Assembly (NCBI GenBank): GCA_017522515.1
Contig: JAFWZH010000258.1
Span: 12,628 to 76,627 of the forward strand
Direction: 5' to 3'
Source: Clostridia bacterium
GTDB lineage: Bacteria; Bacillota_A; Clostridia; UBA1212; UBA1255
Length of the DNA stretch: 64,000 nt
Position numbers and translations under genes: made by a program. How positions within the stretch are numbered: position 1 is the stretch's first letter; every line of letters begins with the position of its first letter. The notes beneath the pieces are model-generated. The model saw only the letters and a list, made by a program, of their open reading frames with translations, did no database searches and had not been told where the DNA came from. This document shows positions 27,259 to 44,114 of this stretch, one piece after another.

Positions 27259-27283
27259 AACATATAAAATAACCTCTTTGACG

Positions 27284-27316
27284 AAAAGCAGAATGCCTTG
27301 TGTATTCTGCTTTTTG
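27284..27316 (+). terminator. Terminator after the foldase gene
   Basis: 11-bp stem AAAAGCAGAAT/ATTCTGCTTTT (27284-27294 with 27304-27314), 9-nt loop, T run. Confidence 0.85.
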
Positions 27317-27319
27317 TAT

Positions 27320-27348
27320 TTGACAATTCTGCTCGCGTGTGTGATAAT
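27320..27348 (+). promoter_or_regulatory. Probable promoter of the malate-to-succinate gene cluster
   Basis: TTGACA (27320-27325) and GATAAT (27343-27348) with a 17-bp spacer directly after the terminator. A 120-nt leader follows that contains two GTGCGC blocks with A/T runs between them (27355-27385). No other promoter is evident until after 40026. Confidence 0.6.
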
Positions 27349-27468
27349 ATCAGAGTGCGCGCAAAGGCGTTTTTTGTTGTGCGCAAAAACGTAAGATTTC
27401 GTTATTTACAGCATAAATACGCAGTATAATTTTGAGATTGAAAATATTTTTTAGAAAAGAGGATGCAT

Positions 27469-28419
27469 ATGAGCAACAAGGTAACAATTATCGGAGCAGG
27501 CAGCGTTGGTTCAACAATCGCATATACTATGACAGTAAAGGGAATTGCTTCAGAAATCGTACTCATTGATATCAACCACGATAAAGCCGAAGGTGAGGCT
27601 ATGGATATTCAGCAGGGAACACCTTTCTGCTGTCCTGTAACTATTTACTCCGGCACATACGAGGATGCCAAGGATTCTGACGTGGTAGTAATTTCTTCCG
27701 GACTTCCGAGAAAACCCGGACAGACAAGACTTGATCTTGCACAAACTAACGTAAATATTATGAAAGAAATTGCACCTGAAATTGCAAAACATGCACCTGA
27801 TGCGTTATATATTATAGTTAGTAATCCTGTTGATATCATGACTTATGCTTTTATGAAGTATTCAGGACTGCCGGAAAGTAAGATTATCGGTTCAGGTACT
27901 ATACTTGATACAGCACGTCTTCGTTACTACCTTTCAGATCACTTCGGTGTTTGCCAAAAGAATATACATGCGTATGTAATGGGCGAACATGGTGATTCAT
28001 CTTTTATACCTTGGTCTTTGGCAAAAATTGCTGCTATTGGCATAGAAGATTACTGTAAAGGAATTAAATACACAGGTAAAAATATAGTAACACCGCCTAA
28101 TTATGATGAGGTTATTGAATATGTAAGAACTTCCGGCGGCGAGATTATTAAGAACAAACAAGCTACTTATTATGCTGTTTCTGTTTCTGTGTGCAGTATT
28201 GTAGAATCTCTCTTTACCGGTAAGGATTATATCATGACAGTTTCTTCAATGATGCATGGTGAATATGGATTAAGCGATGTATGCATTAGCCACCTTTTTG
28301 TTTTGGGTATTGACGGAGTAAAGGGTTGTGTAACACCTACACTTTTGGATAGTGAGATTGAACTCATGCACAAGAGCGGCAATGTTCTTAAAGACCTTAT
28401 TGCAAAACTTGAATTTTAA
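27469..28419 (+). CDS. LDH-family dehydrogenase with malate-type specificity residue
   Basis: NAD-dependent 2-hydroxyacid dehydrogenase, 316 residues, Rossmann motif GAGSVGST (9-16), NAD-ribose Asp in VLIDINHDKAEG, catalytic DTARLR and GEHGDSS (proton-relay His). Overall it resembles L-lactate dehydrogenase, but the specificity loop reads SGLPRKPGQTR: Arg81 stands where lactate dehydrogenases have Gln (position 102 in LDH numbering). That Gln-to-Arg change is the established switch to malate/oxaloacetate. The next genes are fumarase and fumarate reductase, so I predict reduction of oxaloacetate to malate. Start ATG 27469 (AGAGGA upstream); the ATG at 27463 overlaps that site. Confidence 0.85.
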   Translation: MSNKVTIIGAGSVGSTIAYTMTVKGIASEIVLIDINHDKAEGEAMDIQQGTPFCCPVTIYSGTYEDAKDSDVVVISSGLPRKPGQTRLDLAQTNVNIMKEIAPEIAKHAPDALYIIVSNPVDIMTYAFMKYSGLPESKIIGSGTILDTARLRYYLSDHFGVCQKNIHAYVMGEHGDSSFIPWSLAKIAAIGIEDYCKGIKYTGKNIVTPPNYDEVIEYVRTSGGEIIKNKQATYYAVSVSVCSIVESLFTGKDYIMTVSSMMHGEYGLSDVCISHLFVLGIDGVKGCVTPTLLDSEIELMHKSGNVLKDLIAKLEF

Positions 28420-28453
28420 TTTTTATATAGACAATATTTTGGAGGAAAAAGAT

Positions 28454-29818
28454 ATGGAATATCGTATAGAGCGCGATTCGATGGGTGAAATGCAAGTGCC
28501 CGCAGACCGTTACTGGGCTGCACAGACGCAGAGAAGTTTTCAGAACTTCAAAATCGGCGGAGAAATAATGCCACGTGAAATTACTCATGCATTTGGCATT
28601 TTAAAAAAGGCCGCTGCAATTGCCAACTTTAATTTAGGCAAAATGGACGAAGAAAAGAAAAATATTATCAGCCAAGCTTGTGATGAAGTAATAGCAGGTA
28701 ATTTGAACGACCATTTTCCGTTAGTTGTTTGGCAGACAGGAAGTGGCACACAGTCTAATATGAATGCAAATGAGGTAATCGCAAACAGAGGCAATGAAAT
28801 TTGCGGTAAAAAGCTTCTTCATCCTAACGACCATATTAATATGTCACAAAGCTCAAATGATACGTTCCCCACAGCAATGCATATTGCAGCTGTTATTGGT
28901 ATCGAAGATAAGCTCTTCCCTGCAATGGATACTTTTATTGCAACATTAAAACGCCTTGAAGCAGAGAATGATGATATTGTAAAAAGCGGACGTACACACC
29001 TTCAGGATGCAACTCCTGTTAAATTTTCTCAGGAGATCAGCGGTTGGAGAAATATGATAGAAAAAACAAAAGGTATGCTTGAAGCCGCTCTTCCCGGACT
29101 TAAGGAACTTGCTCTTGGCGGTACAGCAGTAGGCACGGGACTTAACGCGCCTAAAACATTCGGTGCCGAGGTTGCAAAAGTTGTTTCTGACCTTACAGGC
29201 AAGAAATTCGAAACAGCCGAAAATAAATTCCACGCACTCACATCAAAAGATGAGCTTGTGTTTGCTCACGGAGCACTTAAAGCTTTGGCTGCAGACCTTA
29301 TGAAGATTGCTAATGACGTACGTTGGCTTGCCAGCGGTCCGAGATGTGGTCTTGGCGAAATTTTCATTCCTGAGAATGAACCCGGCAGTTCAATCATGCC
29401 CGGAAAGGTTAATCCCACACAGTGCGAGTCTATGACAATGGTTGCAGTACAGGTAATTGCAAATGATGTTGCAGTAGGTATGGCAGCGTCACAGGGCAAC
29501 TTCGAACTTAATGTTTTCATGCCTGTACTCATATACAACTTCCTCCAGTCAGTACGCCTTTTGGCAGACGGAATTCGTTCCTTCAACGATAATTGTGTTG
29601 CCGGCATTACTGCAAACAGAGAAAAAATGAAACATAACCTTTATAATTCACTTATGCTCGTAACAGCTTTGAATCCTTACATAGGATATGATAATGCTGC
29701 TAAAACAGCTAAGAAGGCTTATAAAGAAAACATATCATTAAAAGAAGCATGTGTAGCGCTTGGCTTCCTCACAGCAGAAAAGTTTGACGAAGTATTCAAG
29801 CCTGAACAGATGGTATAA
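28454..29818 (+). CDS. fumC: Class II fumarate hydratase
   Basis: Interconverts malate and fumarate without a metal cluster. 454 residues with the superfamily motifs TGSGTQSNMNANEV, SSNDTFPTAMH, HLQDATPVKFSQEISGW, GGTAVGTG and the signature GSSIMPGKVNPTQCE. Aspartase-specific features are not apparent, and FumC is supported by the neighbours. A long frame opens at 28352, but ATG 28454 has GGAGG 8 nt upstream. 34 bp after the dehydrogenase; supplies fumarate to the downstream flavoprotein. Confidence 0.93.
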   Translation: MEYRIERDSMGEMQVPADRYWAAQTQRSFQNFKIGGEIMPREITHAFGILKKAAAIANFNLGKMDEEKKNIISQACDEVIAGNLNDHFPLVVWQTGSGTQSNMNANEVIANRGNEICGKKLLHPNDHINMSQSSNDTFPTAMHIAAVIGIEDKLFPAMDTFIATLKRLEAENDDIVKSGRTHLQDATPVKFSQEISGWRNMIEKTKGMLEAALPGLKELALGGTAVGTGLNAPKTFGAEVAKVVSDLTGKKFETAENKFHALTSKDELVFAHGALKALAADLMKIANDVRWLASGPRCGLGEIFIPENEPGSSIMPGKVNPTQCESMTMVAVQVIANDVAVGMAASQGNFELNVFMPVLIYNFLQSVRLLADGIRSFNDNCVAGITANREKMKHNLYNSLMLVTALNPYIGYDNAAKTAKKAYKENISLKEACVALGFLTAEKFDEVFKPEQMV

Positions 29819-29865
29819 AATTAATATTACAATAACTTAAATTTAAAACTGAAAGGAAAATGAAT

Positions 29866-30651
29866 ATGACTTACAGTTATTATCCCGGATGTACATTAAA
29901 AACTAAAGCAAAAGAATTGGATCGTTACGCCAGAGTTTCAGCCGAAGCTCTCGGCGTTACGCTTGCAGAAATAGAAGATTGGCAATGTTGCGGTGCTGTT
30001 TATCCTTTGGCACTTGATGAGATTGCTACTAAATTATCTGCGGTACGTGCTCTTGACAGTGCAAAAAAAGAAGGTAGGGAATTACTTACATTGTGTTCTG
30101 CTTGTCATCATGTTATAAAAAGAGTAAACAACGATATGCTTACAAATGATGATATCCGAATGAAAGTAAATAATTATCTTAAACTTGACACGGATTACGT
30201 AGGCGAAACAAATGTTGTTCACTATCTTGAAATGTTAAGAGACGCTGTAGGCTTTGATAACCTTAAAGCAGCAGTTAAAAATCCTCTTAAAGGCAGAAAA
30301 ATTGCAGCATATTATGGTTGCTTGTTGTTGAGACCTGCAAAAGTTATGCAGTTTGATAACCCTGAAAATCCTACAATTCTTGAGGATTTTATAAAAGCAA
30401 TCGGCGCTACTCCGGTAATTACGGGATATCGTAATGAATGTTGCGGTGGTTATGTTGCTTTAGAGGATAAAGCTATTCCGCAAAAGCGTGCTAATATGAT
30501 TCTTGAAGAAGCAGTATCAAAAGGTGCTGACACAGTTATTACAGCTTGTCCTTTGTGCTTGTATAATTTAGAAACAAACAGCACAATCGAAAACAAACCG
30601 ACAATCTGCTACTTTACAGAATTACTTGCCGAAGCACTCGGCATAAAATAA
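29866..30651 (+). CDS. hdrB: Heterodisulfide reductase subunit B-like protein (two CCG domains)
   Basis: 261 residues with two complete CCG motifs: C9-x31-CC(41,42)-x34-C77xxC80, and C152-x39-CC(192,193)-x34-C228xxC231. In methanogen HdrB these bind two non-cubane [4Fe-4S] clusters that cleave the CoM-S-S-CoB disulfide. The organism is a bacterium, so the natural substrate is unknown; it may instead pass electrons directly to the fumarate reductase. The start ATG 29866 gives MTYSYYPGCT, as in relatives. Followed 12 bp later by hdrC. No coenzyme M or B genes are seen. Confidence 0.92.
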   Translation: MTYSYYPGCTLKTKAKELDRYARVSAEALGVTLAEIEDWQCCGAVYPLALDEIATKLSAVRALDSAKKEGRELLTLCSACHHVIKRVNNDMLTNDDIRMKVNNYLKLDTDYVGETNVVHYLEMLRDAVGFDNLKAAVKNPLKGRKIAAYYGCLLLRPAKVMQFDNPENPTILEDFIKAIGATPVITGYRNECCGGYVALEDKAIPQKRANMILEEAVSKGADTVITACPLCLYNLETNSTIENKPTICYFTELLAEALGIK

Positions 30652-30663
30652 GGAGGGATTTTT

Positions 30664-31056
30664 GTGACGGTAAACGAGAAAGAACTTGCAGAGCGCGTGA
30701 TAAGAATCAGCGGTGTTAATACAAAAAAGTGTATGAAATGCGGTAAGTGCTCAGGTACGTGTCCCTCATTTGACGAGATGGAGTATCATCCTCATCAATT
30801 TGTTTCTATGGTAGAAAAGGGACAAATAAAAAAATTGATGGAGTCTAAGTCAATCTGGACTTGTCTTTCTTGCTTTGCATGTATTGAAAGATGTCCCAGA
30901 AGCGTTGAACCTGCAAAGCTTATAGAAGCAGTGCGTGTTTGCGTTATAAGACAGCAGGGCGAGAACCATCTTAAGGCGAATGCAGTGCCTGAAAAGTTGG
31001 ACGAAAATATGCCACAACAGGCAATTGTAAGTGCATTCAGAAAATACAGTAAGTAA
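30664..31056 (+). CDS. hdrC: Heterodisulfide reductase subunit C-like ferredoxin
   Basis: 130 residues with two [4Fe-4S] motifs, CMKCGKCSGTCP (C23-C33) and CLSCFACIERCP (C67-C77), linking HdrA to HdrB. Starts at GTG 30664, 8 nt after AGGAGGG. The motif spacing and length fit the soluble HdrC type (no membrane helix). Sits between hdrB and hdrA, in the order B-C-A. Confidence 0.92.
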   Translation: MTVNEKELAERVIRISGVNTKKCMKCGKCSGTCPSFDEMEYHPHQFVSMVEKGQIKKLMESKSIWTCLSCFACIERCPRSVEPAKLIEAVRVCVIRQQGENHLKANAVPEKLDENMPQQAIVSAFRKYSK

Positions 31057-31082
31057 ACAGATAAAGATTGGAAGTGAATAAA

Positions 31083-33068
31083 TTGCAAAAAATCGGAGTA
31101 TTTGTTTGTTGGTGCGGCAGTAATATTGCAGGCACAGTAGATGTAGAAAGAGTAGCACAGGCTGTAGCGAATGAGCCGGGTGTTGTTATATCAACAGACT
31201 ATCAGTATATGTGTTCCGAAGCCGGTCAGCTTAAAATCAGACAGGCTATAAAAGAATACGGCCTTACCGGCATTGTAGTATGTTCGTGTTCACCTCGTAT
31301 GCACGAAGCTACATTCCGTAAGACAGCCCAGGCTGCAGGTCTTAACCCTTACATGGTAGAAATCGCCAATATTCGTGAGCAGTGCTCTTGGATACATAAA
31401 GATAAAGACGAGGGTACAGAGAAAGCAATTATTTTGGCGAAGGCGGCAATTGCCAAGCTTCACCTTAATACACCATTAAAGGCCGGTGAAAGTGCAGTAA
31501 CGAAAAGAGCGCTTGTAATCGGCGGTGGTATTGCAGGTATTCAGACAGCACTTGACATTGCTGATGCAGGATATGAGGTTGATATAGTTGAGAAATCTCC
31601 TACCATCGGCGGTAAAATGGCTCAGCTTGATAAAACATTCCCCACACTTGACTGTGCGGCATGTATATTGACACCTAAGATGGTTGATGCATCAGCTCAT
31701 GAGAAAATCAACCTTTATACGTACAGTGAGGTTGAGGGTGTATCGGGTTTCGTAGGTAATTTTAAAGTAAAGATTAGAAAAAAGGCAAGACACGTAAAAG
31801 CAGACCTTTGTACAGGTTGCGGTGTTTGTACTGAGAAATGTCCTTCAAGAAAGGCTCCCAATGAGTTTAACCAAGGACTTAATAAACGAGGTGCAATTTA
31901 TATACCTTTTGCGCAGGCTATACCTAATGTTCCTGTAATTGACACAGAGTATTGTGTAAAAATGAAAACAGGTAAATGCGGTCTTTGTGCAACTGTTTGT
32001 CCTTCAAAGGCTATTGATTTTGAACAACAGGACGAAATAATTGAGAGAGAGTATGGTGCAATTGTTGCAGCAACAGGTTATAAGCTTATCAATCTTGATA
32101 ACTTTGAGGAGTTCGGATATGCTCAAAATAAAGATGTTATTACATCGTTAGAGCTTGAAAGACTTATGAATGCGGCAGGTCCTACAAAGGGTACGCTTCT
32201 TCGTCCTTCTGACAATGAACATCCCCATGAGATAGTATTTATACAGTGTGTAGGTTCAAGAGATGTTTCCGGTTGCGGTAAACCATATTGCTCAAAGATT
32301 TGTTGTATGTATACAGCAAAGCACGCAATGATGATTCGTGATAAATATCCGGATACAAAGGTACATGTATTCTATATTGATGTAAGAACTCCCGGTAAGA
32401 ATTTTGATGAATTCTACCGCAGAGCAGTTGAAGAATACGGCGTTGACTACATAAAGGGTATGGTTGGTAAAGTTGTAGAAAAAGATGGCAAGCTTCTTGT
32501 TCAAGGTTCTGACCTTATTGCCAATGAGCAAATTAAAATTGAAGCAGACCTCGTTGTTCTTGCGACTGCAATCGAGCCTGATCCCAGTGTTAAAAATCTT
32601 GCTACAATGCTTACAGCAAGTATCGACACAAATAATTTCCTTACAGAGGCTCACGCAAAACTTCGTCCCGTAGAGAGTCCTACAGCAGGTGTGTTCCTTT
32701 CAGGCGTATGTCAAGGACCTAAGGACGTTCCGGAAACAGTCGCTCAGGCAAGTGCAGCAGCAGCTAAAGTTATTGGATTGCTTGCCAAAGATAAACTTAC
32801 ATGTAATCCTTGTGTTGCAAATTCAAATGAGCTTCTTTGTAACGGATGTTCACAGTGTGCTAATGTTTGTCCTTACGGAGCAATTGAATATATAAATAAA
32901 GAGGTAAATGACCACGGTAAGAGAGAAGTTCGCCGTATTGCTTTGGTAAATGAAGCAGTATGTCAAGGTTGCGGTGCTTGTACTGTAACTTGTCCGTCAG
33001 GCGCAATGGATCTTAAGGGCTTTACTACAAGACAAATTATGGCGGAGGTTGACGCAATATGCAAATAA
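31083..33068 (+). CDS. hdrA: Heterodisulfide reductase subunit A-like flavoprotein (bifurcating FAD subunit)
   Basis: 661 residues. N-terminal domain MQKIGVFVCWCGSNIAG, then FAD-binding VIGGGIAGIQTALDIA, the HdrA core PTLDCAACILTPKMV, an inserted pair of ferredoxin-type motifs (CTGCGVCTEKCP and CGLCATVCP), the thioredoxin-reductase-like fold, and two C-terminal [4Fe-4S] motifs (CNGCSQCANVCP, CQGCGACTVTCP). In HdrABC-MvhADG the HdrA FAD splits electron pairs between ferredoxin and the heterodisulfide; the same is proposed for HdrABC-Flox. Start is TTG 31083 after GGAAGTGA; the TTG at 31068 precedes that site. Overlaps mvhD by 10 bp. Confidence 0.94.
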   Translation: MQKIGVFVCWCGSNIAGTVDVERVAQAVANEPGVVISTDYQYMCSEAGQLKIRQAIKEYGLTGIVVCSCSPRMHEATFRKTAQAAGLNPYMVEIANIREQCSWIHKDKDEGTEKAIILAKAAIAKLHLNTPLKAGESAVTKRALVIGGGIAGIQTALDIADAGYEVDIVEKSPTIGGKMAQLDKTFPTLDCAACILTPKMVDASAHEKINLYTYSEVEGVSGFVGNFKVKIRKKARHVKADLCTGCGVCTEKCPSRKAPNEFNQGLNKRGAIYIPFAQAIPNVPVIDTEYCVKMKTGKCGLCATVCPSKAIDFEQQDEIIEREYGAIVAATGYKLINLDNFEEFGYAQNKDVITSLELERLMNAAGPTKGTLLRPSDNEHPHEIVFIQCVGSRDVSGCGKPYCSKICCMYTAKHAMMIRDKYPDTKVHVFYIDVRTPGKNFDEFYRRAVEEYGVDYIKGMVGKVVEKDGKLLVQGSDLIANEQIKIEADLVVLATAIEPDPSVKNLATMLTASIDTNNFLTEAHAKLRPVESPTAGVFLSGVCQGPKDVPETVAQASAAAAKVIGLLAKDKLTCNPCVANSNELLCNGCSQCANVCPYGAIEYINKEVNDHGKREVRRIALVNEAVCQGCGACTVTCPSGAMDLKGFTTRQIMAEVDAICK

Positions 33069-33505
33069 ATGAGAATAATAAAGAATTTAAACCGTTGATT
33101 GTTGCATTTTGCTGCAATTGGTGTAGCTATGCCGGTGCAGACCTTGCAGGCTCAAGCAGACTTTCTTACCCTGCAAATGTAAAGGTTATACGCGTTCCTT
33201 GTTCATGTCGTGTAAATCCTTTGTTTATTTTACGTGCATTCCAAAGAGGTGCTGATGGCGTAATTATAGCCGGATGTCATCCGGGAGACTGCCATTATAC
33301 ATCAGGTAATTACTTTGCAAGAAGACGAATGACGCTTCTTTTCAGTATGCTTGACTATTTGGGAATAGAAAAAGGCAGAACACGTGTTGAGTGGATTTCC
33401 GCAGCAGAGGGTGCTAAATTCTCGGCGACAATGAATGAATTTGTAGAAACTATCCACAATTTGGGACCTAATAAGAAATTGGAGGATTTGAGATGCAAAG
33501 AATAA
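33059..33505 (+). CDS. MvhD/FloxD-type iron-sulfur subunit
   Basis: 148 residues. Cys motifs CCNWCSYAGADLAG (C18, C19, C22), PCSCR (C48, C50) and GCHPGDCHY (C73, C78) define the MvhD family, which holds a [2Fe-2S] cluster and passes electrons from the input module to HdrA. It overlaps hdrA upstream and the next Fe-S gene downstream, so stoichiometric synthesis is likely. No hydrogenase genes are present; the input here is the Flox-like module. Confidence 0.9.
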   Translation: MQINENNKEFKPLIVAFCCNWCSYAGADLAGSSRLSYPANVKVIRVPCSCRVNPLFILRAFQRGADGVIIAGCHPGDCHYTSGNYFARRRMTLLFSMLDYLGIEKGRTRVEWISAAEGAKFSATMNEFVETIHNLGPNKKLEDLRCKE

Positions 33506-34491
33506 GTAAAGAAATTTTAGCAAAATGCCGTGCTTTGTTAGAAGACGGCACAGCAGACAGAGTTATGGGTTGGGAGAACGGTGAGTTTTATTACGATGTA
33601 ACTCCTGCTGTTTTCACAAAAGAAACTTTGGATAACATGATTTATGATGATTTTTGCGCTTCAAATCAAAGCAAGTATTTTATACTTGAATCTAAAAAAG
33701 AAGGTAAAATCATTGCACTTTTAAAGCCTTGCGATACATACAGCTTTAATCAACTTTTAAAAGAAAACAGAATTAACCGCGAGAATGTATACGTTTTGGG
33801 AATTCCTTGTGATGGCAAGATTGATGTTCAAAAAGCAGCTCTGCTTGGCATCAAGGGTATTACCGGTGTTAAATCGGTAGGCGACGAAGTTGTTTTTGAA
33901 ACAATTTACGGAGAAAAATCATGCGCTAAAAAAGATGTTCTTTTTGAAAAGTGTATGGCATGTAAGGGCAAAAAACATATGATATATGATGCTCTTTCCA
34001 ATGAAGAGCAAGAGCCCGAGACAGCTGTTGCAAATGAGGATTTCGGTAACAGATTTGCGTATATCGAAAATCTTGAGCACATGACTCCCGATGAGAGATT
34101 TGATTTCTGGAGAGGGGAGCTTTCAAGATGTATTCGTTGTAACGCTTGTCGTAACGTATGTCCGGCTTGCTCTTGTCTTACATGTGTATTTGACAACCCC
34201 AAATCAGGTGTAGACAGCAAAGCGAATACAGATGATTTCGAAGAAAATCTTTTCCACATTATAAGAGCTTTCCACGTAGCAGGCAGATGTACAGACTGCG
34301 GAGAGTGCACAAGAGTTTGTCCTCAGAATATTCCGCTTCATTTGCTTAATCGTAAATTCATTAAAGATATCAATGAGCTTTACGGTGAATATCAGGCAGG
34401 TGCGGATATTGAGCTGGGCATGCCTTTGACATCTTATACAAAGCAGGATGTAGAGCCAAGTATTGTTTATGAGAGAGGCGGTAAGAAATGA
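33493..34491 (+). CDS. Flox-type dicluster ferredoxin subunit (FloxC-like)
   Basis: 332 residues. The N-terminal half resembles the F420-hydrogenase/formate-type beta region (KPCDTYSFNQLLKEN, GIPCDGK, CMACKGKKH). The C-terminal half has a Cys-rich cluster site CIRCNACRNVCPACSCLTC and CTDCGECTRVCPQ. Predicted to relay electrons between the NAD(P)H-oxidising flavoprotein and MvhD/HdrA. It overlaps mvhD by 13 bp and the next gene by 4 bp. The exact Flox letter is uncertain; the role comes from its neighbours, as in the hdrABC-floxABCD clusters of sulfate reducers and fermenters. Confidence 0.82.
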   Translation: MQRISKEILAKCRALLEDGTADRVMGWENGEFYYDVTPAVFTKETLDNMIYDDFCASNQSKYFILESKKEGKIIALLKPCDTYSFNQLLKENRINRENVYVLGIPCDGKIDVQKAALLGIKGITGVKSVGDEVVFETIYGEKSCAKKDVLFEKCMACKGKKHMIYDALSNEEQEPETAVANEDFGNRFAYIENLEHMTPDERFDFWRGELSRCIRCNACRNVCPACSCLTCVFDNPKSGVDSKANTDDFEENLFHIIRAFHVAGRCTDCGECTRVCPQNIPLHLLNRKFIKDINELYGEYQAGADIELGMPLTSYTKQDVEPSIVYERGGKK

Positions 34492-35540
34492 TGTACAAAA
34501 TAGCTAAAGACCGTTTACCTGAATTATACGCGGCAGTTTCAGCAATTAAGAATATTTATGTTCCCGTAGAAAGTGCAAATCAATGCCTTTTTGAGCAATG
34601 GACACCTACAAGCAACGTAAACATTGATTGCCTTAAAACTGTTAAGTCAGCAAAAGAATTGTTTTTCCCACAAAGTGAAAATCTTATTTCGTTTAAAGTT
34701 ACAGGTAAAAACATAGATATTATTGAAGATCGCGATCCTGCAGAACCTTTTGTGATTTTCGGTGTGCGTGCATGTGACGCTAAGAGCTTTGAAGTACTCG
34801 ATAACGTATTTTTAAGCGAGCCCGTTGATACTTTTTACAAGAGCAGAAGAGAAAACGGCGTTATAGTTACGATGGCTTGCAACGAACCCGAAGAAACTTG
34901 TTTCTGTGGTGCATTCGGAATAAATGCGGCTAACCCACAAGGTGGCGACGTAACTACATGGTTGGTTGGCGATATTCTGTATTGGAAAGCTGAAACAGCA
35001 AAAGGTGAAGAGCTTACAAAAGCACTCGCAAATGTTTTGGAGAGCGCAGAAAGTTCCGACGAGGCAAAAGTAGAAGCAGCAAAGAGTGCAATAGAAAATA
35101 TTTTGAATAAGTTGCCTCTTAAGGACTTGGATCTTTCATATTTCAGTGGTGAGCACTTAACTACCAAGCTTAACGATGTTTTCTATGCTGAACAATGGAA
35201 AGAACTTTACAAAGCATGTCTTGGTTGCGGCACATGTACTTTCGTGTGTCCTACTTGCCAATGCTATGATATAAGAGATTTTGATACGGGACACGGAGTA
35301 AAAAGATTCCGTTGCTGGGATTCTTGCATGTTCTCTGATTTTACAAAGTGTGCACACGGAAATCCCCGTACAAGTCAAATGGAGCGTTTCCGTCAGCGCT
35401 TTATGCACAAGCTGGTTTATTATCCGGCTAATAATGACGGTTTGTATTCATGCGTAGGCTGTGGCAGATGTTTGTCAAAATGCCCCGTATCTTTGAATAT
35501 TGTAAAAGTAATTAAATCTTTCGGAGGTGAATCGAAATGA
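34488..35540 (+). CDS. AsrA/FloxB-like iron-sulfur subunit
   Basis: 350 residues with an N-terminal domain of the anaerobic sulfite reductase A / hydrogenase beta type (FVIFGVRACDAKSFEVLDNV, ACNEPEETCFCG). Two C-terminal [4Fe-4S] motifs follow, CLGCGTCTFVCPTCQC and CVGCGRCLSKCP. It pairs with the following AsrB-like FAD subunit, as AsrA pairs with AsrB. No siroheme subunit (AsrC) is present, so sulfite reduction is unlikely. Starts in a 4-bp overlap (ATGA). Confidence 0.85.
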   Translation: MMYKIAKDRLPELYAAVSAIKNIYVPVESANQCLFEQWTPTSNVNIDCLKTVKSAKELFFPQSENLISFKVTGKNIDIIEDRDPAEPFVIFGVRACDAKSFEVLDNVFLSEPVDTFYKSRRENGVIVTMACNEPEETCFCGAFGINAANPQGGDVTTWLVGDILYWKAETAKGEELTKALANVLESAESSDEAKVEAAKSAIENILNKLPLKDLDLSYFSGEHLTTKLNDVFYAEQWKELYKACLGCGTCTFVCPTCQCYDIRDFDTGHGVKRFRCWDSCMFSDFTKCAHGNPRTSQMERFRQRFMHKLVYYPANNDGLYSCVGCGRCLSKCPVSLNIVKVIKSFGGESK

Positions 35541-36364
35541 ATCCCGATGCATTAATACCTCAGCTTGGTATAGTTACTGACATTCGTCAGGATACACCGG
35601 ATGTTAAAACATTTCGTGTAAATGCTCCCGGTGGCGGTAAGTGCTTTGAGCATATGCCGGGACAGTGCGCAATGCTGTCAATTCCCGGAGTAGGTGAGGC
35701 GATGTTCTCAATAACTTCTTCGCCCACAAATAAAGAATTTATGGAATTCAGTATTAAGCGTTGCGGACAGCTTACTGATTGGCTCCATCAAATGGAGGTA
35801 GGTCAGACAGTTACAATTCGCGGACCTTACGGACGTAATTTCCCGGTTGAAGAAGAGCTTAAAGGTAAAGATTTGCTCTTTATTGCCGGCGGTATTGGAT
35901 TGGCACCGCTTCGTTCCGTAATCGATTACTGTCTTGCAAACCGTGCAAATTACGGTAAAATCGATATAGTTTACGGTTCTCGTTCAGCAGATGATTTGGT
36001 AGATTATGACCAGATTTGCAATGATTGGATGAAAGCAGAAAACGTAAATGTTCACCTTACCATAGACAGACCTCAAGAGGGTTGGGAAGGACATGTAGGT
36101 TTTGTTCCTGCTTACGTAAAAGAGCTTAATTTTGATACTAACAAAACGGCGCTCCTTTGCGGTCCTCCGATAATGATTAAGTTTACATTGGCATCTCTGC
36201 AGGAGATGGGCTACGATAAGACTCAAGTTTATACAACAATGGAACTTCGTATGAAGTGCGGCATAGGAAAATGTGGCCGTTGTAACATAGGATCGAAGTA
36301 CGTTTGCAAAGACGGACCGGTATTCCGTTGCGACCAGTTGGATGAACTCCCGAATGAGTATTAA
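35537..36364 (+). CDS. AsrB/FloxA-like FAD- and NAD(P)H-binding subunit
   Basis: 275 residues of the ferredoxin-NADP reductase fold. FAD part with MPGQCAMLSI and MFSITSSP, NAD(P) part with FIAGGIGLAPLRSVI and ALLCGPPIMI, and a C-terminal PyrK-like [2Fe-2S] site (CGIGKCGRCNIG plus a further Cys). It is the entry point for NAD(P)H electrons into the complex. Starts in a 4-bp overlap with the AsrA-like gene. The cofactor preference (NADH or NADPH) cannot be read safely. Confidence 0.88.
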   Translation: MNPDALIPQLGIVTDIRQDTPDVKTFRVNAPGGGKCFEHMPGQCAMLSIPGVGEAMFSITSSPTNKEFMEFSIKRCGQLTDWLHQMEVGQTVTIRGPYGRNFPVEEELKGKDLLFIAGGIGLAPLRSVIDYCLANRANYGKIDIVYGSRSADDLVDYDQICNDWMKAENVNVHLTIDRPQEGWEGHVGFVPAYVKELNFDTNKTALLCGPPIMIKFTLASLQEMGYDKTQVYTTMELRMKCGIGKCGRCNIGSKYVCKDGPVFRCDQLDELPNEY

Positions 36365-36400
36365 TACTAATTATTTTTACAGAAAGTGAAGGCAAAAAAC

Positions 36401-37075
36401 ATGGAAAATATGGTAAATGTATTTATAATGGGCAAAAAGTATTCCGTACCGTCGGAGCTTACAATTATGGACGCTATGGAATATGCCGGCTATCAGCTTG
36501 TACGCGGATGCGGATGCCGTAACGGATTCTGCGGAGCATGTGCTTCGGTTTACAGAATAAAAGGCGATCCTGAACTCAAGGTTTGTCTTGCTTGTCAAAC
36601 AAAGGTAGAAGAGAATATGTACGTAGCACAAATTCCTTTCTTCCCGGTTGTTAAACAGACTTATGATATTAACGAAATTCGTCCAACAGAGAGCATAATG
36701 ATGCAGCTTTATCCCGAGATTTACAGTTGTATCGGCTGTAATGCTTGTACAAAGAGCTGTACACAGAGTCTTAATACAATGCAGTACATAGCATACGCAC
36801 AAAGAGGCGAATATGCTAAGTGCGCAGAGGAGTCTTTTGACTGCGTAATGTGCGGAATTTGTTCCTCACGTTGCCCGGCTCAAATTTCTCACCCTCAGGT
36901 AGCTCTTCTTGCAAGAAGACTTACAGGAAAGTATATTGCGCCTAAGGCAGAACACCTTGAAAAAAGAGCAGCAGAAATTGCAAACGGTGATTTTGAACAG
37001 TCTATGAAAGAGCTTATGGCAAAGCCTATAGATGAGCTTAAAGACATGTACAATCACAGAGATATAGAGAAATAA
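36401..37075 (+). CDS. TfrB/SdhB-like iron-sulfur protein of a soluble fumarate reductase
   Basis: 224 residues: a plant-type ferredoxin domain (C37, C39, C44, C47 and C62/C65) followed by two [4Fe-4S] motifs (CIGCNACTKSC, C110-C120; CVMCGICSSRC, C148-C158). This is the electron-transfer subunit for the next flavoprotein. Methanogen thiol:fumarate reductase TfrB has this same front half fused to an HdrB-like CCG domain; here the CCG domain is absent, while a separate HdrB lies in the operon. Quinone-reactive SdhB has a 3Fe-4S motif and membrane partners, both missing. Start ATG 36401 with AAGG upstream. Confidence 0.85.
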   Translation: MENMVNVFIMGKKYSVPSELTIMDAMEYAGYQLVRGCGCRNGFCGACASVYRIKGDPELKVCLACQTKVEENMYVAQIPFFPVVKQTYDINEIRPTESIMMQLYPEIYSCIGCNACTKSCTQSLNTMQYIAYAQRGEYAKCAEESFDCVMCGICSSRCPAQISHPQVALLARRLTGKYIAPKAEHLEKRAAEIANGDFEQSMKELMAKPIDELKDMYNHRDIEK

Positions 37076-37088
37076 GGAGGAAAGCAAA

Positions 37089-38717
37089 ATGAGCGATGCA
37101 TTTTATACACAGGAGATGCTGGATTCAATAAAGAAGGTTGAAGCAAGTCGTGCATCACGTATCGGTTTTGAACCAAGAAGAATGACAGCAGAGGAAAAGG
37201 AAGCTTTACTTGCAAAATTCCATCCTGATTATAAGAAAGAAAATTTTGCCACATTGGAAATGGGTCCTAATAAAGGTGAACAGGTTCCTACTGAGCTTGC
37301 TGCATTGTTGCAGGCACACAGCCGCATAAATCCCGATGAAATCGATTTAAGCCATGCAGATTATGATGTTGATGTTCTCGTAATCGGCGGAGGCGGAGCA
37401 GGTTCTTCTGCAGCAGTTATGGCACATGAGAACGGTGCTAATGTTATGATAGTAACAAAGCTTCGTCACGGTGATGCAAATACTATGATGGCAGAGGGCG
37501 GTATTCAGGCTGCAGATAAAGAAAACGACTCACCTATGACTCACTACGTTGACGCTTTAGGTGGCGGACACTTCAAAAACGTTCCGGAGTTGTTATATAA
37601 ACTTGTTACAGACGGCCCCGGCGCAGTTAAGTGGCTTAACGATTTGGGCGTTATGTTTGATAAAGAAGAAGACGGCACAATGGTTACAACACATGGCGGC
37701 GGTACATCAAGGAAGAGAATGCACGCAGCAAAAGACTATTCCGGTGCTGAAATCATGCGTGTTCTTCGTGATGAAGTTATTAACAGACAGATTCCTGTTG
37801 TTGACTATACAGCAGCAGTAGAGCTTATTCTTGACGAAAACGGCAAGGCAGCCGGCGCTGTTCTTATGAATATGGAGACGCATGAAATCCTTATTGCAAA
37901 GGCAAAGACAGTTGTTATTGCTACAGGTGGTGCAGGAAGACTTCACTATCAAGGATTCCCCACATCAAATCACTACGGTGCTACAGCTGATGGTCTTGTG
38001 CTTGCATACCGTGTAGGTGCTCCGCTTTTGTATGCGTATACATTGCAGTACCATCCTACAGGTGTTGCTTTCCCCGCACAGATTTTCGGTGCTCTCGTTA
38101 CGGAAAAGGTTCGCTCTCTCGGAGCAATGCTTATTAACGTAGAGGGAGAAGCATTTATGCATCCTCTTGAGACACGTGACGTTTCTGCTGCTTCTATTAT
38201 TCGTGAGTGCAAAGAAAGAGGCAAGGGTGTACCTACTCCGGATGGTTACGGTATATGGCTCGACACTCCTATGATTGAAGAAATTCACGGTAAGGGTGCC
38301 ATTGAGAAGAGAATTCCTGCTATGCTCCGTATGTTTATGAAATACGGTTATGATATGAGAGAAAAACCGATTTTGATTTATCCTACACTTCACTATCAAA
38401 ATGGTGGTATCAAAATAGGTGCTGACGGTATGTCAGAGGTAGAGAACCTCTTTGTTGCAGGTGAGGCTGTCGGAGGAATCCACGGTGAAAACAGACTTAT
38501 GGGTAACTCACTTCTCGATATTATTGTATTCGGACGTAATGCCGGCGTTCACGCTGCAGCTAAGGCAAAAACTGTTGGCGAAGTTGGTAAGTTGACTCTT
38601 GATCACGTTAAGAAATTTGACAAAGAGCTTGCTGATGCAGGCATAGTTACTGATAAAGTATCTCCTCAATTGTTGCCCAGATATACACATGGCAATCCTA
38701 AGTATGAGGCTAAATAA
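37089..38717 (+). CDS. Fumarate reductase flavoprotein, TfrA/FrdA-like
   Basis: 542 residues. An N-terminal extension of about 92 residues precedes the FAD site VLVIGGGGAGSSAAV (97-111). Core motifs: MMAEGGIQAA, ATGGAGRLHY, the substrate-binding QYHPTGV, and ENRLMGNSLLDIIVFGR with the catalytic-loop Arg. Where FrdA/SdhA have the His that binds FAD covalently (SHT), this has ANT (Asn131), so FAD should be non-covalent, as in L-aspartate oxidase and TfrA. No nadA/nadC neighbours, so an NAD-biosynthetic role is less likely. GGAGG before ATG, 14 bp after the Fe-S gene. Predicted to reduce fumarate to succinate in the cytoplasm. Confidence 0.88.
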   Translation: MSDAFYTQEMLDSIKKVEASRASRIGFEPRRMTAEEKEALLAKFHPDYKKENFATLEMGPNKGEQVPTELAALLQAHSRINPDEIDLSHADYDVDVLVIGGGGAGSSAAVMAHENGANVMIVTKLRHGDANTMMAEGGIQAADKENDSPMTHYVDALGGGHFKNVPELLYKLVTDGPGAVKWLNDLGVMFDKEEDGTMVTTHGGGTSRKRMHAAKDYSGAEIMRVLRDEVINRQIPVVDYTAAVELILDENGKAAGAVLMNMETHEILIAKAKTVVIATGGAGRLHYQGFPTSNHYGATADGLVLAYRVGAPLLYAYTLQYHPTGVAFPAQIFGALVTEKVRSLGAMLINVEGEAFMHPLETRDVSAASIIRECKERGKGVPTPDGYGIWLDTPMIEEIHGKGAIEKRIPAMLRMFMKYGYDMREKPILIYPTLHYQNGGIKIGADGMSEVENLFVAGEAVGGIHGENRLMGNSLLDIIVFGRNAGVHAAAKAKTVGEVGKLTLDHVKKFDKELADAGIVTDKVSPQLLPRYTHGNPKYEAK

Positions 38718-38739
38718 GAAAAGAGGCAAATTATAAGCA

Positions 38740-40026
38740 ATGGATATTATTGACAAAATATTTTCATTAGGTGCAGTCGGCAGTACAACCATTGTGCTTT
38801 GCGGAGCAATGTTGATAGCGTTTATCGGTTATGCATTAGGTAGCATAAAAATCAAAGGCGTATCCTTGGGAACAGCCGGTGTATTTTTAATGGCTTTACT
38901 TTTCGGTTACTTGTTTACATTGCCGGTATTGAAGGATGTTCCGATTATAGGAAAATTCTTTATTGAAGATGCCACAGCAGGTGCGGTAAGCAAGTACAAG
39001 ATGTTAAGCTCAATAGGATTGGTATTATTTGTTACGGCAGTAGGTTTTATAGCAGGTCCGAGCTTCTTTAAAAATCTTAAAAAGAATGCAAAATCTTACG
39101 TTCTTTTGGGAGTGTTGATTGTAGGTTCAGGCGCGCTTGTGTGTGCATTGTTCTCTTTGATAAAGGGAAGTGCTTACGGTACCGGAATTATGTCAGGTGC
39201 ATTAACAAGTACTCCCGGTTTCTCTGCATCACAAGAAGCCGTTTCAAGTTCAAATCCTGACCAATTGGGACTTGTTGCTTTAGGTCATGCAGTTGCATAT
39301 CCTTTCGGAGTGGTTGGTGTTGTGTTGTTTGTACAACTGATACCTAAATTCTTAAAAGCAGACATGGCAAAAGAAAGAGAACTTATGAAAGTAGGTACGG
39401 AGTCTGTCGTTGAAGAGAAAAAAGAAACTAAGAAGCTTTTTGAGCTTGACGAATTCGGACTTGGCGCATTTGGATTGGCTGTTGTTTTGGGAATTTTTCT
39501 CGGTTCAATAAAAATTCCTCTTTCAGGCTCAGGCTATGCAGAGGGTGCAGCAACATTCTCTTTGGGTAATACAGGCGGTCCGCTTATAATGGCGCTTATT
39601 TTGGGACACTTTGGCAGAATGGGCAAGTTAAGTTTAAAAGTTCCGGAGAAGACTCTTAAAGTATTCCGTGAATTTGGTTTAATGCTTTTCTTGTTGGGTG
39701 CAGGCGTTGAAGGTGGAGTTGAGCTTGTTGACCAAATAAAGCAATCCTCTGACGGAGCAATGATTATTTTATATGGTTTTGTCAGTGGAGCATTAATGAC
39801 AATTATTCCTATGATTATCGGATACGTTATTGCAAGAAAACTTCTCAAAATGAGTATGCTTAACGCATTGGGCTCAATTACAGGAGGTATGACAAGTACA
39901 CCTGCTTTAGGAACACTTATAAATGTTGCCGGTACAGATGATGTTGCAGCTGCTTATGCGTCAACATATCCTGTTGCCCTTGTTCTTGTAGTTCTTGCAT
40001 CACAGCTTATAGCTGTACTCATATAA
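38740..40026 (+). CDS. AspT/YidE-superfamily transporter, probable C4-dicarboxylate carrier
   Basis: 428 residues with about 10-11 membrane segments in two homologous halves. Each half has the family signature: TSTPGFSASQEA (first) and GGMTSTPALGTL (second). AspT of Tetragenococcus exchanges aspartate for alanine. This protein lacks the central TrkA_C domains and is shorter; a hydrophilic loop (about 215-235) replaces them. As the last gene of the malate-fumarate-succinate operon, a role in succinate export or dicarboxylate exchange is the best guess. Followed by a strong terminator. Confidence 0.8.
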   Translation: MDIIDKIFSLGAVGSTTIVLCGAMLIAFIGYALGSIKIKGVSLGTAGVFLMALLFGYLFTLPVLKDVPIIGKFFIEDATAGAVSKYKMLSSIGLVLFVTAVGFIAGPSFFKNLKKNAKSYVLLGVLIVGSGALVCALFSLIKGSAYGTGIMSGALTSTPGFSASQEAVSSSNPDQLGLVALGHAVAYPFGVVGVVLFVQLIPKFLKADMAKERELMKVGTESVVEEKKETKKLFELDEFGLGAFGLAVVLGIFLGSIKIPLSGSGYAEGAATFSLGNTGGPLIMALILGHFGRMGKLSLKVPEKTLKVFREFGLMLFLLGAGVEGGVELVDQIKQSSDGAMIILYGFVSGALMTIIPMIIGYVIARKLLKMSMLNALGSITGGMTSTPALGTLINVAGTDDVAAAYASTYPVALVLVVLASQLIAVLI

Positions 40027-40053
40027 GTATTTGTATAAGAGTATTTTGTTTTT

Positions 40054-40092
40054 AAAAGCAGAGCTTGTCTTGTTGATAAGTTCTGCTTTTTG
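40054..40092 (+). terminator. Terminator of the malate-to-succinate operon
   Basis: 13-bp stem (40054-40066 with 40078-40090, one G-U), 11-nt loop, then T run. Confidence 0.85.
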
Positions 40093-41771: not shown

Positions 41772-44114
41772 ATGAGTATAAAAATCGCTCTTGCAGGTAA
41801 TCCGAACAGTGGAAAAACAACACTTTTTAATGCTTTGACCGGCTCAAACCAGTTTGTTGGCAATTGGCCCGGAGTAACGGTAGAAAAAAAAGAAGGCAAA
41901 TTCAAAAAGGACAGTGACGTAATAATTGTCGATTTGCCCGGTATTTATTCTCTTTCTCCATATACGTTAGAAGAAGTTGTTGCGAGAAATTACCTTGTAG
42001 GAGAGCGACCTGATGCTATATTAAATATCGTTGACGGTACTAATATAGAAAGAAATCTTTATTTAACAACACAGTTAAAAGAATTAGGTATTCCTGTAGT
42101 TGTTGCAGTGAATATGATGGATATTGTCATAAAAAACGGAGATAAAATAAATATACCGGAGCTTTCAAAGGCTATGGGCTGCAAAATAGTAGAGATTTCC
42201 GCTTTGAAAGAAACAGGTATAACAGAGGCTGCAGAAGAAGCAATAAAGGCAGCAAAAGGAACAAAGATTATTCCGCAGCATTGTTTTAGCGGAGAAGTAG
42301 AACATACACTGGCGCACATAGAAGAGGCGGCAGTTCACGGACTGCCTATAGAACAGCAGCGTTGGTATGCAATTAAAATTTTTGAACGTGACAGCAAAGT
42401 TTTGGAGCAACTTAATCTTGATAAAGAAGTGATGCAACACATAGAGGAAGACATTCAGGCAACAGAGCAAGCAATGGATGATGATTCCGAGAGCATTATC
42501 ACGAATGAGCGTTATACATATATAGAAACAATTTTAAAAGGTTGTTATCATAAGAAAAATGCCAGCAAAATGACAATTTCAGACAAAATTGACAGAATTT
42601 TAACGAATAGATTTGCCGCACTTCCCATATTTGCAATAATAATGTTTGCAGTTTATTTTATTTCGGTAACTACCATTGGTGCTTGGGTGACAGATTGGAC
42701 TAATGACGGATTGTTTGGTGATGGTTTCCATCTGTTTAACATAGGTGTTTCTGAATATGAAGCGGCAACAGACGAGTTTGCTGAAATAATATGGGCGGAC
42801 AAGACGGTTAATGATGCGGTAGATAAAGCGGTAAAAGATAAACTGCCCGGAGCAGAAGAAATTCAAAGTGCAATTGATAATAAAGATTTTGCAGCTTTTG
42901 AAGAGGCGTATGGCTCTTACGGTGAAGTTATTGGTGAAACTTTTACGAGTGATGTAAACGCTCTTCTTGAGGGGGCACCAAATCCTGCGGATTATGGTGT
43001 GTGGGTGCCGGGCATACCTGTTTTGGCAGAAAAAGGTTTAAATGCTATCAATTGTAATGAAACTGTAAGTAGTCTTGTGCTTGACGGAATTATTGGTGGT
43101 GTAGGTGCGGTTTTGGGCTTTGTTCCTCAAATGTTGGTGCTCTTTATTTTCCTTGCTTTTCTTGAAGCTTGCGGATATATGGCCAGAATCGCTTTCGTTA
43201 TGGACAGACTTTTCTGTAAAATCGGACTTTCGGGTAAGTCGTTTATTCCTTTGCTTGTAGGAACCGGTTGCGGAGTTCCCGGTATAATGGCTTCCAGAAC
43301 TATTGAGAATGAACGAGATAGGAGAATGACAATAATTACAACAACATTCATTCCTTGCGGAGCAAAGCTTCCTGTTATAGCGCTCGTTGCGTCTGCTCTT
43401 TTCGGGGGTGCTTGGTGGGTTGGACCCAGTGCGTATTTTATTGGAATGGCGGCTGTCGTCGTTTCCGGTATAATGCTGAAAAAGACAAAAATGTTTGCCG
43501 GCGAACCGGCTCCGTTTGTGATGGAATTGCCACCGTATCACATGCCCACATTCCGTAATATAATGCGCAGTATGTGGGAACGTGGTTGGTCTTTTATAAA
43601 GAAGGCGACAACAATTATTCTCCTTTCTACAGTTATTATTTGGGCTGCAGACTATTTCGGAATGCTTGATCCGATTGGCAATGCTATAAAATGGATTTTT
43701 GTTCCCTTGGGATTTGGCTCAGGTGAGGCAGGCGCTACTGCTTCCGTTGCTACGATAATGGGTCTGATTGCAAAAGAAGAGATTGTAGCAGTATTTGGTG
43801 TCACTGACATTATGGGTATGACAAAGCTGACAGCATATTCATTCTTGATCTTCAATTTGCTGTGTGCACCGTGTTTTGCGGCAATCGGGGCAATAAGAAG
43901 GGAAATGAACTCTGCAAAATGGACATTGTTTGCAATAGGATATCAGACATTGTTTGCGTATGCGATTTCTTTCATTGTATATCAGTTGGGAATGCTGTTT
44001 GTGGGAAGCGGAAATATAATTTGTGCTATTATCGCTTTTATACTTATTGCAGCTTTTGTATACATGTTGTTTAAACCGTATAAAGAAAGTACAAAACTCA
44101 CGACAAAAATATAA
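41772..44114 (+). CDS. feoB: Ferrous iron transporter FeoB
   Basis: 780 residues. N-terminal G domain: GNPNSGKTTLFNALTG (G1), DLPGIYSL (G3), VNMMD (G4). Then a helical GDI region and a membrane domain with GTGCGVPGIMASRT and the FIPCGAKLPV motif (conserved Cys). After the first membrane helix (about 280-298) there is a long hydrophilic loop (about 300-430) rich in Glu/Asp/Ala, much larger than in standard FeoB, which explains the extra length. It takes up Fe2+ for the many Fe-S enzymes encoded nearby. Preceded by feoA and an iron-box; followed by the Cys-rich peptide. Confidence 0.95.
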   Translation: MSIKIALAGNPNSGKTTLFNALTGSNQFVGNWPGVTVEKKEGKFKKDSDVIIVDLPGIYSLSPYTLEEVVARNYLVGERPDAILNIVDGTNIERNLYLTTQLKELGIPVVVAVNMMDIVIKNGDKINIPELSKAMGCKIVEISALKETGITEAAEEAIKAAKGTKIIPQHCFSGEVEHTLAHIEEAAVHGLPIEQQRWYAIKIFERDSKVLEQLNLDKEVMQHIEEDIQATEQAMDDDSESIITNERYTYIETILKGCYHKKNASKMTISDKIDRILTNRFAALPIFAIIMFAVYFISVTTIGAWVTDWTNDGLFGDGFHLFNIGVSEYEAATDEFAEIIWADKTVNDAVDKAVKDKLPGAEEIQSAIDNKDFAAFEEAYGSYGEVIGETFTSDVNALLEGAPNPADYGVWVPGIPVLAEKGLNAINCNETVSSLVLDGIIGGVGAVLGFVPQMLVLFIFLAFLEACGYMARIAFVMDRLFCKIGLSGKSFIPLLVGTGCGVPGIMASRTIENERDRRMTIITTTFIPCGAKLPVIALVASALFGGAWWVGPSAYFIGMAAVVVSGIMLKKTKMFAGEPAPFVMELPPYHMPTFRNIMRSMWERGWSFIKKATTIILLSTVIIWAADYFGMLDPIGNAIKWIFVPLGFGSGEAGATASVATIMGLIAKEEIVAVFGVTDIMGMTKLTAYSFLIFNLLCAPCFAAIGAIRREMNSAKWTLFAIGYQTLFAYAISFIVYQLGMLFVGSGNIICAIIAFILIAAFVYMLFKPYKESTKLTTKI

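Follow-up and report, generated by a model that had tools for sequence, protein, structure and literature searches.

A soluble operon of a gut Clostridia bacterium that may couple fumarate reduction to electron bifurcation, and the wider distribution of its fumarate reductase genes

Introduction

In a stretch of 64,000 nucleotides from a Clostridia bacterium (contig JAFWZH010000258.1, positions 12,628 to 76,627; the whole stretch is called the window below), twelve co-directional open reading frames at 27469–40026 on the forward strand make up one operon of a gut bacterium, in which genes for a malate dehydrogenase, a fumarase and a carrier flank the series hdrBCA-mvhD-flxCBA-tfrBA. What does such an operon do, and is its fumarate reductase, TfrBA, a working part of the Hdr and Flx proteins encoded beside it? 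We suggest, with a probability of about 0.6, that the operon serves fermentation, with succinate as its end product, and that the nine subunits HdrBCA, MvhD, FlxCBA and TfrBA would form a soluble, NADH-driven assembly bifurcating electrons to ferredoxin and to fumarate. The operon is not new in outline, since its kind has already been proposed (PMC7282089); what is added here is breadth across relatives.

The operon and the proposed route to succinate

The features of the operon, all on the forward strand, are as follows.

27320–27348, forward: promoter-like site matching 11 of 12 consensus bases, TTGACA-17-GATAAT, its second hexamer preceded by TG
27469–28419, forward: malate dehydrogenase of the lactate/malate dehydrogenase (LDH/MDH) family, 316 amino acids (NCBIfam, query from 27463; Arg81)
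28454–29818, forward: class II fumarase FumC, 454 amino acids (TIGR00979, 733.8 bits, above cut-off, with a query that started two codons early)
29860–30651, forward: HdrB-like protein with two CCG motifs, 263 amino acids (PF02754 in two stretches; HdrB structures)
30664–31056, forward: HdrC-like protein with two [4Fe-4S] sites, 130 amino acids (family matches; eight Cys kept in all 68 rows)
31068–33068, forward: HdrA with FAD and ferredoxin domains, 666 amino acids (match to 5odc_A, 5.8e-206)
33059–33505, forward: MvhD/FlpD adaptor, 148 amino acids (PF02662, 187 bits)
33493–34491, forward: FlxC-like Fe-S subunit, 332 amino acids (matches to FdhB chains)
34488–35540, forward: FlxB-like (AsrA/ShyB type) Fe-S subunit, 350 amino acids (NF040829, PF17179)
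35537–36364, forward: FlxA-like, AsrB-type NAD(P)H flavoprotein with a [2Fe-2S] domain, 275 amino acids (PF00175, PF10418, PF00970)
36386–37075, forward: TfrB-like protein with ligands for one [2Fe-2S] and two [4Fe-4S] clusters, 229 amino acids (family matches)
37089–38717, forward: TfrA-like fumarate reductase flavoprotein, 542 amino acids, extended at the N terminus by about 90 residues
38740–40026, forward: AspT/YidE-family carrier, 428 amino acids, nine hydrophobic segments (PF06826, TIGR01625, hydropathy)
40054–40090, forward: terminator-like hairpin whose 3' arm ends in a T run (z -7.0)

All twelve reading frames are thus present on one strand and match the families that the original prediction had named, and the gene content supports its reading of a single soluble operon leading from oxaloacetate or malate to succinate. 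Its statement that the operon encodes no membrane anchor, quinone site or hydrogenase is borne out: among the operon proteins a simple hydropathy scan finds transmembrane segments in the carrier only, and hence none of the membrane anchor subunits that would mark a quinol:fumarate reductase.

In the route that we propose, malate dehydrogenase and fumarase would convert oxaloacetate to fumarate. Hydride from NADH would enter the assembly at FlxA and its electrons would travel by way of FlxB, FlxC and MvhD to the HdrA flavin (FAD). There they would be bifurcated: one electron would reach ferredoxin via HdrA's own ferredoxin domains, while its partner would go via HdrC, the two non-cubane clusters of HdrB and TfrB to the FAD of TfrA, where fumarate would be reduced to succinate. 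The net reaction would be 2 NADH + fumarate + oxidized ferredoxin (2 e-) -> 2 NAD+ + succinate + reduced ferredoxin, which is downhill by about 33 to 49 kJ per mol fumarate. Succinate would probably leave the cell by the AspT-type carrier. We infer from the predicted proteins that they form a complex, that this complex bifurcates, that it uses NADH rather than NADPH, and that it works in the direction of succinate formation and export.

Conservation of the gene set in the class

We searched 391 genomes from the class of the nearest genome for TfrA (E <= 1e-90) and HdrA (E <= 1e-80), scoring at most three candidates per genome, so that weaker HdrA paralogues are undercounted. TfrA was found in 53 genomes, HdrA in 56 and both in 52. 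The two genes share a contig in 46 of these genomes and lie on different contigs in 6; on shared contigs they are always on one strand (46/46), with hdrA upstream in 45, and the gap between them has a median of 3987 bases (range 3939–4187), the exception being genome G270 (1277 bases). The two close matches that stand alone lie at truncated loci, the TfrA-only contig of G072 ending in flxC and the HdrA-only contig of G033 in flxA; three further genomes without a TfrA match (G023, G038 and G066) carry an HdrA just 41–47 % alike. The proposed tie between the Hdr-Flx genes and TfrBA therefore stands for the close TfrA and HdrA, which are paired across the 391 genomes except at contig ends.

Gene order was read in named loci, the best 80 of 261, most of them from metagenome bins. 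Among the 52 of the close group (L032–L082 and L105; L107, a TfrA fragment, was excluded), the core hdrBCA-mvhD-flxCBA-tfrBA is colinear in all 39 with at least 8.2 kb upstream, the other 13 having been dropped for short flanks; the conservation of gene order by which the original prediction was to be checked is thus found. With at least 9.9 kb upstream (36 close loci), fumC lies upstream in 32 and the malate dehydrogenase gene in 20; with at least 1.5 kb downstream (46 close loci), an AspT gene follows in 39. One of the close loci, L055, belongs to a cultured species, Merdimmobilis hominis. The conservation of the gene set is far beyond chance. Moreover, G270 carries all nine genes in another order (tfrB-tfrA-hdrB-hdrC-hdrA-mvhD-flxC-flxB-flxA) and its TfrA falls, on a long branch, outside the main Hdr-Flx clade of a quick tree with several other long branches (L083, L104, L112, L085). 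Considering that both gene order and TfrA placement differ there, mere inheritance of a neighbourhood is a weaker explanation.

An hdr-tfr fusion would have strengthened the case further. No in-frame fusion of neighbouring genes occurs in the 80 named loci, judged from the best match per gene and so blind to second copies; locus L102 has a second HdrA, of 807 amino acids, fused to MvhD. Three overlong TfrA proteins (P0003, P0082 and P0109) were considered as fusions and rejected: by eye they repeat internal TfrA stretches and are probably assembly artefacts. A search for TfrB relatives in viral contigs found none.

What the subunits retain

HdrB has two complete CCG motifs, that is, two non-cubane [4Fe-4S] sites, of whose ten ligand Cys nine are kept in 66 of 66 aligned rows; the remaining one, which comes first, is kept in 65 and falls in a gap in one. 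HdrA aligns end to end (residues 8–663, Fer4 domains included) with the solved HdrA 5odc_A, and scores below the cut-offs of the NCBIfam HdrA and HdrA2 models. MvhD/FlpD presumably carries a [2Fe-2S] cluster. For the C-terminal Fe-S part of the FlxC-like subunit the best solved relatives are FdhB chains, from three entries that also contain HdrA; the FlxB-like subunit reaches 185.8 bits against NF040829, below the cut-off of 690. The names FlxA, FlxB and FlxC go by resemblance, and none was given by a family search.

In TfrB the 12 Cys of the cluster ligands are invariant in 84 of 84 rows. At 229 residues it is without a CCG domain (no PF02754 match), unlike the methanogen TfrB. Three proteins of the operon each match a different section of the methanogen model (488 positions), TfrB at 17–93, HdrC at 132–221 and HdrB at 416–485, all far below cut-off, so that the one-piece protein found in nature joins what are three proteins here. 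TfrA scores 324.7 bits against the NCBIfam model of methanogen TfrA (cut-off 718) and keeps the catalytic and dicarboxylate-binding His, Thr, Glu and Arg of the fumarate reductase/succinate dehydrogenase (SDH) flavoprotein superfamily, with Asn131 replacing the His of covalent FAD attachment in 86 of 86 rows. Its nearest solved folds are fumarate reductases, and the neighbours include urocanate reductase and L-aspartate oxidase; since the rows of this comparison cover mainly residues 75–527, the N-terminal extension is left unclassed. For none of the 53 solved sequences matched by TfrA (E <= 1e-10) is membership of an Hdr complex named.

The dehydrogenase scores above the NCBIfam cut-offs of two L-lactate dehydrogenase models and of one malate dehydrogenase subfamily. 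We reject the lactate dehydrogenase name on Arg81, which stands in all 25 aligned rows kept (of 26, one dropped for length) at the position of Gln102, presumably the substrate-specificity site of lactate dehydrogenases, and so speaks for malate. Gln is found there in the solved relative 1a5z; against the malate name, the best solved match, 1y6j, deposited as an L-lactate dehydrogenase, has the same Arg.

Distant TfrBA loci

The remaining loci considered here, 27 of the 80, encode TfrA proteins of 56–64 % identity, and 4 of them end too near tfrBA to be read; an hdr gene is in reach in 21 of the 23 readable. In ten loci, those of Desulfofundulus, Desulfovirgula and Ammonifex among them, tfrBA is immediately preceded by hdrC-hdrB, and neither hdrA nor flx lies upstream; one locus of this type, L103, has HdrA genes on the downstream side. 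HdrA genes are present in nine loci, and in seven of the nine (Chloroflexota, Omnitrophota, Deltaproteobacteria) they are accompanied by mvhD and a weak FlxC-like match. HdrA arrays, mvhD and an FrhB/FlxC-like protein precede tfrBA in L110 (516–11668), where the array includes one protein of 1010 amino acids, and in L111, L089, L092, L096, L099 and L104.

In two Thermoplasmata loci, L098 (3043–11659) and L102 (35–11659), the order before tfrB-tfrA is hdrA-mvhD-mvhG-mvhA-protease-hdrC-hdrB, mvhG and mvhA being the small and large subunits of a [NiFe] hydrogenase; in L102 the hydrogenase-Hdr genes are separated from tfrBA by another hdr set plus one additional gene. The protease-like gene of L098, the locus covered by the HycI search, matches HycI below cut-off. 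This set is a candidate H2-driven bifurcating fumarate reductase. Among the literature matches listed, none deals with it or with the wider distribution, judged by titles and the opening lines of abstracts. PMC9723716 describes different archaeal clusters that combine Hdr, hydrogenase and SdhA genes.

Two loci have no hdr gene in reach. In Frackibacter (L085, 5766–12899) tfrBA follows genes for NapC/cytochrome c7 and FMN-binding Fe-S proteins and precedes malic enzyme, with no hdr match, and this pair perhaps runs on a cytochrome donor. In L083 (7895–11653) fumC is followed by tfrB and tfrA with no hdr or flx genes in reach.

Because the distant partners are so varied (HdrCB alone, HdrA arrays, Hdr with [NiFe] hydrogenase), TfrBA looks like a swappable output module. 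We tentatively extend this, at somewhat less than even odds, to the suggestion that HdrABC uses TfrBA, together with HdrCB, as an exchangeable module for output to fumarate, giving one family of bifurcating fumarate reductases with differing inputs: NADH via FlxCBA in gut Clostridia and a Treponema, H2 via MvhAGD in Thermoplasmata, and others via HdrA arrays in Chloroflexota and Deltaproteobacteria. The non-cubane clusters of HdrB would then act as a relay into an Fe-S protein, with no role as a disulfide reductase.

Metabolic setting

In 15 context genomes, most of them in many contigs and possibly incomplete, GTP-dependent phosphoenolpyruvate carboxykinase is above cut-off in 12 and the ATP-dependent enzyme in 2 others. 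No menD was above cut-off in any of the 15, a futalosine-route family was so in 3, marginally (31–34 bits against 26), and 7 encode flavoproteins that carry the SDH C-terminal domain. RnfC is above cut-off in 26 of the 53 TfrA-bearing genomes. Of the 15 context genomes, 3 have [NiFe] hydrogenase and all 15 have [FeFe] hydrogenase domains. Considering these domains together with the scarcity of RnfC (1/10) and of [NiFe] hydrogenase (0/10) in the nearest family, the window's kin more likely spend reduced ferredoxin on hydrogen than on Rnf.

Alternatives and points against bifurcation to fumarate

Several observations count against a bifurcating assembly that ends in fumarate. HdrB keeps both of its disulfide-type cluster sites, which leaves room for a thiol carrier. 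RnfC is above cut-off in none of the four genomes of the genus and in one of the ten of the nearest family, and [NiFe] hydrogenase in none of these ten, which makes the gain from reduced ferredoxin less obvious. The original prediction had held that tfrAB regularly found apart from the hdr-flx genes, and the reverse, would speak against it, and this is partly so: outside the close group, the ten hdrC-hdrB loci are without hdrA or flx upstream and two loci have no hdr gene in reach, and in G038 and G066 (L117 and L118) HdrA arrays with mvhD and flxCBA occur with no tfr gene in the stretch read. Finally, Endoriftia tfrAB did not track the expression of its Hdr-Flx cluster (PMC11636981).

The retained ligands of both non-cubane clusters would also suit a pathway of two enzymes, in which HdrB reduces a small disulfide or thiol protein and TfrBA spends the thiol on fumarate. 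Methanogen TfrAB reduces fumarate with thiols. PMC7282089 has the electrons going to ferredoxin and thiols. We nevertheless regard this as unlikely: lacking the CCG domain, TfrBA alone is without a known thiol-oxidizing site, and the position of hdrC-hdrB directly before tfrBA in the ten distant loci gives the impression that HdrCB belongs to the reductase. An arrangement in which HdrA is a mere conduit of a plain soluble NADH:fumarate reductase, with ferredoxin left unreduced, draws on the fact that NADH to fumarate is strongly downhill uncoupled, and on the 27 of 53 TfrA-bearing genomes in which RnfC is below cut-off; the full-length alignment of HdrA argues against it, since the ferredoxin-type domains it retains would be needless for a conduit, and we consider it rather improbable. 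That TfrBA acts on another enoate, or oxidizes succinate with confurcation, might be read from the urocanate reductase and L-aspartate oxidase among the fold neighbours of TfrA; the frequent fumC and malate dehydrogenase genes upstream and the invariant Asn131 speak against it, Asn at this position favouring reduction, as in His mutants of Escherichia coli FrdA. Pseudoclostridium thermosuccinogenes, moreover, produces succinate (PMC7282089), and we hold this last alternative to be very improbable. We thus prefer NADH-driven bifurcation to ferredoxin and fumarate.

Relation to known systems

Judged by published gene content and count, the operon resembles the 'succinate operon' of P. thermosuccinogenes (locus tags CDQ83_RS03315-03365), which is reported with transcript data and comprises a fumarase, a seven-gene Flx-Hdr set, a two-gene fumarate reductase and a possible succinate transporter, and for which the same bifurcation hypothesis has been put forward (PMC7282089, published in 2020 and citing the 2019 preprint 10.20944/preprints201912.0288). 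The window has this gene content (fumarase, hdrBCA-mvhD-flxCBA and a two-gene fumarate reductase in one operon) and adds a malate dehydrogenase at the head of the operon. According to the same paper, an older study found that added H2 almost abolished succinate formation, Na2S having the opposite effect; the former fits a ferredoxin-reducing enzyme. In the korABCD-tfrAB-flxABCD-hdrABC clusters of tubeworm symbionts and Thioflavicoccus, tfrAB likewise lies among flx-hdr genes and a direct electron shuttle has been proposed (PMC6315080, PMC11636981), there in an autotrophic setting of the reductive tricarboxylic acid cycle with 2-oxoglutarate oxidoreductase (OGOR). PMC4149029 treats a membrane-type fumarate reductase and HdrCB with QmoAB, and PMC12773636 reports fumarate reductase activity and frdAB transcription in Blautia luti, with no word beginning in 'hdr' in its accessible main text. 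The accessible parts of PMC9044749, where CRISPRi in P. thermosuccinogenes is reported, and of PMC12918512 hold nothing on this Hdr-Flx-Tfr complex. Among the literature matches listed (titles and abstract starts, subscription papers mostly outside) there is no purified or solved complex. The original prediction was not aware of a characterized complex of this composition; a gene set of this kind has been published together with the idea of bifurcation (PMC7282089), and PMC6315080 has a related gammaproteobacterial cluster.

Three known systems offer partial likenesses. The methanogen complex HdrABC-MvhAGD (5odc) shares HdrA, HdrB, HdrC and MvhD with the window, which has an NADH module in place of the hydrogenase and a fumarate reductase besides. 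FlxABCD-HdrABC of Desulfovibrio vulgaris is alike in its composition of Flx, HdrABC and an MvhD-like part, whereas the window has a built-in fumarate reductase as acceptor, replacing thiol or DsrC. Methanogen TfrAB is alike in its flavoprotein, Fe-S partner and HdrB-like part; in the window, TfrA is below the model cut-off and the CCG part is a separate gene, hdrB.

Operon boundaries and neighbouring genes

The limits first given for the operon, 27320–40092, fit the promoter-like site and the closing hairpin. That site is the best of 36 found by a consensus scan, a count that is meaningless since 33.5 are expected by chance. A hairpin directly 5' of it (27281–27317, z -7.8) probably ends the upstream gene; the scan for promoter and terminator sites listed neither this hairpin nor the closing one. 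Of the eleven gene junctions four overlap (by 4, 4, 10 and 13 bases) and seven are spaced by 11–41 bases. The spacer before fumC is 31 bases, or 34 with the fumC start at ATG 28454, which lies behind GGAGG and is probably the true start, instead of the GTG 28352 of the mechanical reading frame.

A gene for the ferrous iron transporter FeoB follows soon 3' of this iron-sulfur-rich operon (window 41772–44114), which may be coincidence. The window also encodes two CotH-kinase proteins, one at 47651–49552 on the forward strand and one at 52884–56090 on the reverse strand (1068 amino acids, with RCC1-like repeats).

Concluding remarks

If the bifurcating assembly is real, it would explain the formation of succinate, a main precursor of propionate in gut and rumen, by gut Clostridia where no menD was seen, and energy would be recovered as reduced ferredoxin at a step that is generally treated as a mere sink for NADH. 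Should HdrB hand its electrons to TfrB without an intermediate, what its unusual clusters do would become directly testable in a bacterium without the need for methanogen cofactors, and the hydrogenase-linked archaeal version, if real, would offer a second, independent test. With due reservation, we see in the modular picture across phyla the part with the most new content.

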